DNA of 64,000 bases from IMG/VR virus record IMGVR_UViG_3300044998_000260, positions 1 through 64,000 of that record; one strand, written 5' to 3'. The notes beneath the pieces were generated by a model. That model did no database searches, had not been told where the DNA came from, and worked only from the letters and a program-made list of their open reading frames with translations. The position numbers were made by a program, and so were the translations under genes. Shown here in pieces: positions 46,390 to 47,279 of the stretch (within the stretch, counting starts at the first letter, position 1; each line of letters starts with the position of its first letter). This DNA comes from a virus.

Positions 46390-46599
46390 CTACGTGTCAC
46401 GCATATTCATATCAAGCGTATAATTACGACTTATGGTAATTTGATTTGAGTCGTAATGGTTAATCTTTCCGGTTTCAAGATTAGCAATCAACCAATGTGT
46501 GTTTTCATGCGGACCATAATCAATAATGAATAAGGCCTGCCCCATACCATGTGGTGTGTTTACCCATAAAACTTGTTGTATTTCGTGAATGGTGGTCAT
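46390..46599 (-). CDS. Small protein, unknown
   Basis: 69 aa, mixed beta (IQQVLWVNTPHG, ALFIIDYGPHENTHWLIANL, KINHYDSNQITISRNY). No family recognised. Its ATG overlaps the TGA of the amber-interrupted gene (ATGA), so it would be co-translated with that gene if the amber codon is read through. Confidence 0.6.
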   Translation of the reverse strand: MTTIHEIQQVLWVNTPHGMGQALFIIDYGPHENTHWLIANLETGKINHYDSNQITISRNYTLDMNMRDT

Positions 46600-46829
46600 G
46601 TAATATACGCGACAAGTTTATCATCTTTGGTCTTTAACTCTAAATGACCTTTGAAACGAATGCTGGCCTTGGTATGTGGATTGTCCGGTGTTTCTTTGGT
46701 AGAAAATCCTCGTTCTGACTCAAAGTGCCAAATGTAATGTGTTTGACCCTTGTGCTTGATGATCCACGGTGGAATGTTCTATGGATCGGCGTTATGGGCT
46801 TTGTTATAGTGAAAGATAATGGTATCCAT
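46596..46829 (-). CDS. Gene with one in-frame TAG (codon 17), possible amber readthrough
   Basis: ATG at 46827-46829 with GAGG 7 nt upstream, open for 77 codons to a TGA except for a TAG at 46779-46781. Before it: MDTIIFHYNKAHNADP; after it: NIPPWIIKHKGQTHYIWHF and a further ~41 protein-like codons ending VAYIT. The frame after the TAG is as protein-like as before, and the end overlaps the next gene's ATG by 4 nt, as real neighbours do here. A tRNA with anticodon CUA lies 0.4 kb away (47207-47279), so suppression could yield the full 77-residue product. A simple nonsense mutation is the alternative. Confidence 0.6.
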
Positions 46830-46860
46830 ACATATTCCTCAATTTATAGTTGATATAATA

Positions 46861-46904
46861 AACGCCGTTAAGACAGGCCGTTGTTGACCCGCCTCAACGG
46901 CGTT
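46861..46904 (-). terminator. Stem-loop before the amber-containing gene
   Basis: AACGCCGTT/AACGGCGTT, a 9-bp perfect stem with a 26-nt loop containing a smaller hairpin, followed by TATTATATC on the coding strand. It ends a 20-codon leader frame (46894-46953) that has a TAG as codon 3. May terminate the tRNA transcript or act as an attenuator. Confidence 0.5.
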
Positions 46905-46953
46905 GATGTTTGTCCATGTCCGCCTCAAGCCCACAGAGGTGATTCTAGTTCAT
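46894..46953 (-). other. 20-codon leader frame with TAG at codon 3
   Basis: ATG AAC TAG, then NHLCGLEADMDKHQRR and TGA inside the hairpin at 46861-46904. Too short for a gene call, but its end inside a hairpin just before the amber-interrupted gene resembles attenuator layout. Mainly recorded as a candidate. Confidence 0.25.
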
Positions 46954-46993
46954 AAATTCTTCTTCAATTGGATTGCATATATCCTTGTTTAAG

Positions 46994-47077
46994 CGGAAGC
47001 AGAGGGATTCGAACCCCCAAAACCTTTCGGTTCGACACTTTTCAAGAGTGCTTAACACGCCAATTGTTCGTGCTTCC
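46994..47077 (-). tRNA. tRNA-Ser (UGA)
   Basis: 84 nt, class II with variable arm (ACCGAAAGGT). Anticodon loop CTTGAAA; acceptor GGAAGCA/TGCTTCC; discriminator G. Confidence 0.95.
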
Positions 47078-47129
47078 ATTATTCATTATAACTTATACTT
47101 ATCGTATTTTGTAGAAGTTAATTTTGCAG

Positions 47130-47202
47130 TGCTCACGGAAGGGATCGAACCTTCTATCTCTGCTATGTCAAAGCAGCGTGTTAGCCGGTACACCACGCGA
47201 GC
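47130..47202 (-). tRNA. tRNA-Val (GAC)
   Basis: 73 nt. Acceptor GCTCGCG/CGTGAGC, anticodon stem CTGCT/AGCAG, loop TTGACAT, T loop TTCGATC, discriminator A. Confidence 0.95.
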
Positions 47203-47206
47203 AATA

Positions 47207-47279
47207 TGCCCATAGCGGGACTTGAACCCGCATCAACCGTTTTAGAGACGGTTGCTCTATGCCTTTGAGCTATATGGAC
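47207..47279 (-). tRNA. Amber-suppressor tRNA (anticodon CUA)
   Basis: 73 nt, canonical cloverleaf: acceptor GTCCATA/TATGGGC, T8 A9, D stem GCTC/GAGC with GG in the loop, anticodon stem ACCGT/ACGGT, loop CTCTAAA with U33 followed by CUA and A37 A38, T arm GCGGG/CCCGC with TTCAAGT. Discriminator A. The anticodon reads UAG. The variable region is short, so it is not a standard Tyr, Leu or Ser scaffold; the amino acid it carries cannot be told. Immediately followed by tRNA-Cys with encoded CCA. Confidence 0.93.

Follow-up and report, generated by a model that had tools for sequence, protein, structure and literature searches.

An interrupted gene beside a CUA tRNA

The window analysed here comprises 64,000 nucleotides (positions 1 to 64,000) of the IMG/VR virus record IMGVR_UViG_3300044998_000260, a phage record of 105,488 bases, and carries on its minus strand a small gene with an in-frame TAG. 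The gene (46596-46829) has 77 codons including the TAG at codon 17 (46779-46781) and ends in TGA; read from 46829 to 46596 it translates as MDTIIFHYNKAHNADP*NIPPWIIKHKGQTHYIWHFESERGFSTKETPDNPHTKASIRFKGHLELKTKDDKLVAYIT, where the asterisk marks the TAG and the part beyond it begins NIPPW and ends AYIT before the terminator. The codon after the TAG is AAC, placing an A directly behind the stop. A probable Shine-Dalgarno sequence, GAGG (46837-46840), lies 7 nt ahead of the ATG (46827-46829), and the gene overlaps through ATGA with a 69-amino-acid open reading frame (ORF) downstream (46390-46599, same strand), for which a Pfam search returned zero matches. On the same strand, 0.4 kb upstream, lies a tRNA gene (47207-47279) with the anticodon CUA (47243-47245), a presumed amber suppressor detected by ARAGORN, by the Rfam model RF00005 (67 bits, E 5e-14; ordinary D and T arms) and by our own cloverleaf scan. 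The original prediction had described both the interrupted frame, with its overlap onto the next ATG, and the nearby tRNA; the frame proved exact and the tRNA was borne out by all three methods. What was then a single instance now appears to be phage-wide: we consider the window gene very probably a stop-gated gene, one member of a widespread suppressor-tRNA module. Such a module would consist of a gene of the FHFNK family described below, a neighbouring peptidyl-tRNA hydrolase (PTH2) gene, or both, stopped soon after the start codon, together with a phage tRNA for that stop (CUA for TAG, UCA for TGA).

The frame also occurs in a distinct phage, L009, where the TAG occupies the same codon as in the window gene. 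On the two sides of the TAG, the proportions of nonsynonymous differences (pN) between the two genes are 0.10 and 0.215 and those of synonymous differences (pS) 0.81 and 0.83, so both sides are under purifying selection, in keeping with the earlier impression that the frame stays protein-like beyond the stop. Synonymous sites are saturated and the TAG is unaltered. When annotated phages were searched with tblastn, Rhizobium phage RHph_I1_18 proved to encode an unannotated homologue whose in-frame TAG occupies another codon (MSEFM*NESCREVIFHFNK) and which stops 12 nt short of an annotated tRNA-Pyl(cta). The TAG in the window is therefore not a chance event, because the same codon is kept in L009 and the RHph_I1_18 homologue has its own TAG elsewhere, again beside a CUA tRNA.

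The window tRNA is one of 44 tRNA genes predicted in an array (44580-59147) that covers most anticodons; the anticodon of one of them (49360-49433) is unreadable.

Interrupted FHFNK and PTH2 genes across phages

The window gene belongs to FHFNK, a family of phage proteins that has no annotation. Alignment searches of IMG/VR recovered 324 to 405 relatives per search, although a search with only the C-terminal 60 residues found zero homologues. With tblastn, the FHFNK domain was also seen in Sinorhizobium phage Phosso and Agrobacterium phage Atu_ph07, where it forms the C-terminal portion of a larger protein. No relatives were found in bacterial or archaeal genomes or in the plasmids searched, and no Pfam, PHROGs or NCBIfam model matched above its cut-off. 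AlphaFold2 models of FHFNK proteins are confident (predicted local distance difference test scores of 94.4 and 91.5), and fold searches with them returned no solved structure at a significant score. Two faint resemblances, a seryl-tRNA synthetase-like tRNA-binding helical hairpin for the N-terminus of the jumbo form (E 1.1) and a WW-domain-like stretch (E 0.23), were too weak and were not used.

Among 148 distinct FHFNK loci, counted with no adjustment for their relatedness, 105 have an in-frame TAG, here called the gate. In 103 of these the ATG is followed by up to eight further codons, the TAG and then the FHFNK core, with TAG as codon 3 in 79 cases; the remaining two, those of the window and L009, have the TAG within the conserved core. 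The other loci are 12 jumbo fusions lacking a stop in FHFNK and 31 with a plain start, one of which (L038) probably begins at a TTG before its TAG and is tallied as gated in later counts. Neither TAA nor TGA occurs at the FHFNK gate in any of the 148 loci. Gate positions range between codons 2 and 17, the gated loci have 21 distinct leaders, and on an approximate FHFNK tree the gate state must have changed at least 10 times. The codon after the TAG is ATT in 74 of the 103; AAA, ACT, CAA and AAC also occur. After the TAG, the median ratio of nonsynonymous to synonymous substitution rates (dN/dS) is 0.11 over 75 pairs, and both sides of the stop are, as judged from such comparisons, evolving as protein. 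Two loci (L086, at about 5422-6100, and L219) contain GIY-YIG-like homing endonucleases with a similar amber leader (MA*IEYS...), immediately 5' of the gated FHFNK gene, a placement suggestive of insertion at the gate.

The second gated family emerged from an unbiased scan for ATG-stop-open frames over 2.2 Mb of loci, in which the PTH2 genes of the jumbo loci stood out. Searches with a hidden Markov model showed that the plain FHFNK loci hold a second, PTH2-like gene, mostly about 350 nt upstream. This neighbour is interrupted by TAG in 22 plain-FHFNK loci, and FHFNK and PTH2 are both interrupted in 14 further loci, leaving nine of the 148 in which no gate was found (among these L013 is cut, and L026 and L027 do have a TAG). 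Both kinds of PTH2 score above the cut-off of the Pfam model PF01981 (PTH2a, E 2e-20 and 1e-25; PTH2b, E 9e-9 to 3e-6); the PTH2-like gene of L119 falls short of it, and the window's own gated gene has no match to the PTH2 model. A PTH2 search gave 27 true relatives, comprising 23 with TAG, three with TGA and one unclear. PTH2b has a median dN/dS of 0.20, and distant phage PTH2 genes outside the module are not interrupted. In L241 (4560-4800; the same as L360), the ATG frame of PTH2 reads MNTAMQ*VL* and the PTH2 reading resumes in another frame, which marks a degenerate or frameshifted gene; with its stop followed by a change of frame it was excluded as unclear.

The type of stop follows the anticodon of the suppressor. 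In all seven jumbo-type phages compared, the PTH2 stop matches the suppressor anticodon: Atu_ph07 and two IMG/VR phages (G001 and G002) have TGA in PTH2 and tRNA-UCA with no tRNA-CUA seen, whereas Phosso, G003, G004 and G005 have TAG and tRNA-CUA with no UCA seen, in tRNA-bearing regions holding most, not all, of the tRNA hits of each record. The authors of the Atu_ph07 genome likewise described UCA as its sole suppressor tRNA (PMC6102473). Across the wider set, a tRNA-CUA lies within the fetched stretch in 109 of 136 TAG-gated loci (one of them also having UCA), and in every ARAGORN case it is on the strand of the gated gene. The 23 loci with a TAG-interrupted PTH2 include 18 with tRNA-CUA and none with UCA; within the fetched stretch, the three TGA-gated loci show UCA in two cases and CUA in none. 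Whole-contig patterns revealed cloverleaf-like CUA tRNAs, overlooked by ARAGORN, in seven contigs previously scored as lacking one; our own cloverleaf scan returned zero hits when run on 72 kb of shuffled DNA. L319-L331 (from contigs of L022, L036, L114, L148, L151, L156, L166 and L169) hold CUA tRNAs that have unusual arms and are omitted by ARAGORN, some perhaps with a lengthened acceptor stem. The suppressor tRNAs as a whole are very diverse, with best matches across a dozen isoacceptor classes including Trp, Lys, Asn and Arg, and this scatter defeated an attempt to derive the inserted amino acid from tRNA similarity.

The sequence around the gate also differs from that of a terminator. Of 165 TAG gates, 161 have A or G as the next base and none has T, whereas T follows 37% of the ordinary TAG terminators of the same loci (n=178). 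Amber suppression is favoured when a purine follows the stop, and termination when a pyrimidine does. A Shine-Dalgarno motif precedes the ATG in 84 of the 103 gated relatives and the post-TAG codon in none of them. From its context, the gate stop looks built for reading.

Readthrough and competing explanations

What is observed is a conserved stop in a favourable context, selection for coding on either side of it and a matching anticodon; such coding conservation and a covarying cognate tRNA are features of suppressor-dependent readthrough. We regard it as highly likely on this basis that the phage tRNA is charged and reads the stop, which would make the protein dependent on the suppressor. 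An in-frame stop is usually a sign of a pseudogene or a sequencing error, but here 148 distinct loci from many assemblies and from isolate genomes contradict an assembly error as the cause of the TAG, the dN/dS after the stop is 0.11, and the stop is always TAG, or TGA with a matching tRNA; we give this explanation practically no weight. Just as improbable is a genome-wide or late-phase reassignment of TAG of the genetic code 15 type. A phage tRNA-CUA is a hallmark of code-15 phages (PMC11210395), but loss of TAG as a terminator and its spread in-frame through many genes were not seen: TAG ends 13 of 110 ORFs of at least 100 amino acids in the window's 105-kb record (that at 60946 among its TAG-ended genes), 16 of 192 long ORFs in RHph_I1_18 and 178 of 1889 ORFs (9%) in the loci. 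The recoding is local, because TAG remains a normal terminator, as the original prediction had maintained from a few genes; its proposal of programmed local suppression with an unchanged code is the best-supported reading of conservation, stop/anticodon covariation, 3' context, Shine-Dalgarno placement and TAG terminators alike. Nor did pyrrolysine decoding fit the data, as no PylS match exceeded the cut-off in the eight records searched (the window's being partial), and the window tRNA fits the general tRNA model in place of tRNA-Pyl architecture, with the 'Pyl' label of ARAGORN reflecting the anticodon only. It is also conceivable, although very unlikely, that the stop closes a real mini-ORF (M-K-stop), with the main protein starting downstream by non-AUG initiation or reinitiation and the tRNA-CUA incidental. 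Stops at codon 3 do resemble minigenes, and the ATT common after the TAG is a rare non-AUG start. However, none of the 103 has a Shine-Dalgarno motif before that codon, which may instead be AAA, ACT, CAA or AAC, the window and L009 have their TAG within the conserved domain, the stop identity tracks the suppressor anticodon, and the +4 base avoids T.

Neutral entrapment shares readthrough with the stop-gated reading and competes with it on purpose alone. In that scenario an existing suppressor tRNA renders stops harmless, and stops drift in and lock the tRNA in place with no regulatory use. The moving gate position, the difference among phages in which gene is gated and the repeated changes of gate state on the tree are as it would predict. 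Against it, the stops recur in the same two families, with no other recurrent TAG-interrupted family in the 2.2 Mb of loci save mixed homing-endonuclease hits, and the TAG codon is unchanged between the window and L009 despite saturated synonymous sites. We consider it improbable, though less so than the mini-ORF.

Several observations weigh against suppressor-dependent gating. No tRNA-CUA was found in the fetched stretch of 27 of the 136 TAG-gated loci, and a search of the window's 105-kb record yielded no PTH2. The continued use of TAG and TGA as ordinary terminators means that suppression must be weak, late or context-dependent, and both the product and the charging of the tRNA are predicted from sequence. 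CUA tRNAs also occur where the module was not found: the authors of the XacN1 (PMC5852040) and Summit (PMC9022506) genomes sought targets for theirs and found none, and our searches detected neither FHFNK in XacN1, nor PTH2 in the Summit relative DLP_5, which has a CUA tRNA, nor the module in Aeromonas phage tRNA regions with CUA tRNAs. FHFNK was likewise not found in phiM12, CM1 and one uncultured phage, SCTP-2 giving a weak hit (E 0.03), and the PTH2 genes of these four phages and of XacN1 are uninterrupted. In Aeromonas phage vB_AdhS_TS3 (Demerecviridae), which has an annotated tRNA-Pyl(cta) (L385, 4996-5070), the 10 kb examined contains neither an FHFNK nor a PTH2 gate, and this tRNA presumably has a different target or none.

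Possible purpose and relation to known systems

Under the stop-gated reading, ribosomes that start at the ATG of the window gene would encounter UAG at codon 17 and proceed only if the phage tRNA-CUA outcompetes release factor 1, so that a stop-gated gene is probably made only when the matching tRNA is present. We argue that which residue is inserted may be of little importance and that what is conserved is the dependence itself, because the suppressor tRNAs are diverse and the N-terminal gate position shifts. As to what the dependence serves, we tentatively suggest that the gate could tie translation-maintenance proteins to actual suppression, with PTH2 and FHFNK being made late, in proportion to readthrough and to peptidyl-tRNA trouble from the suppressor. 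This coupling is favoured over the other purposes considered (delayed expression, addiction to the tRNA and neutral entrapment) because PTH2 recycles peptidyl-tRNA and transfer-messenger RNA (tmRNA) genes lie nearby. The window has one (42343-42686, minus strand; tag ANPALALAA) 4 kb from the gated gene, and two jumbo phages have theirs 2-3 kb from a stop-gated PTH2 (L187, 2071-2580, tag ANDNVYSMAA; L204, 1395-1898, tag ANDNVFAMAA). More speculative, and rather doubtful as yet, is the notion that the gate might act as a sensor of stop readthrough, weighing suppressor charging against release-factor activity, with PTH2 and FHFNK made proportionately in a natural feed-forward circuit protecting translation from the phage's own nonsense suppressor.

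Code-15 phages (crAss-like, Lak) likewise use a phage tRNA-CUA or UCA to read a stop in phage genes, but here the standard code is kept and the stop is limited to one or two genes of the module, usually no more than 10 codons into the gene. Pyrrolysine and selenocysteine decoding share with the module a dedicated tRNA that reads a stop in few genes while the stop remains normal elsewhere, although in the present case the cloverleaf tRNAs are ordinary and diverse, PylS did not appear and the gate is not a fixed residue. In prfB, which encodes release factor 2, an early in-frame UGA autoregulates a translation factor through a +1 frameshift; the gate would similarly tie translation-factor output to termination efficiency, but with the frame continuing and a phage tRNA supplying the readthrough. 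A synthetic suppressor-tRNA feed-forward loop against leaky expression has been described, in which the product needs both the mRNA and an amber suppressor tRNA (PMC7969014); that loop is engineered, whereas the putative one here is natural and conserved over many phages. No prior report of an FHFNK/PTH2 module was found in the literature searched, which covers few subscription papers.

XacN1, Summit and Atu_ph07 are all standard-code phages with a tRNA-CUA or UCA, and Atu_ph07 belongs to the FHFNK/PTH2 module. Its authors named no target for the UCA tRNA (PMC6102473), for which we propose the TGA-interrupted PTH2; the CUA tRNAs of XacN1 and DLP_5 are still without a proposed target. The module thus gives a likely, testable target to many suppressor tRNAs of standard-code phages that previously had none. 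Gating explains why annotation misses such genes, as with the unannotated homologue in RHph_I1_18. The findings suggest that stop suppression serves as a gene switch in nature, and they make it possible to examine directly, in cultured phages, the connection of stop-gating with peptidyl-tRNA recycling.
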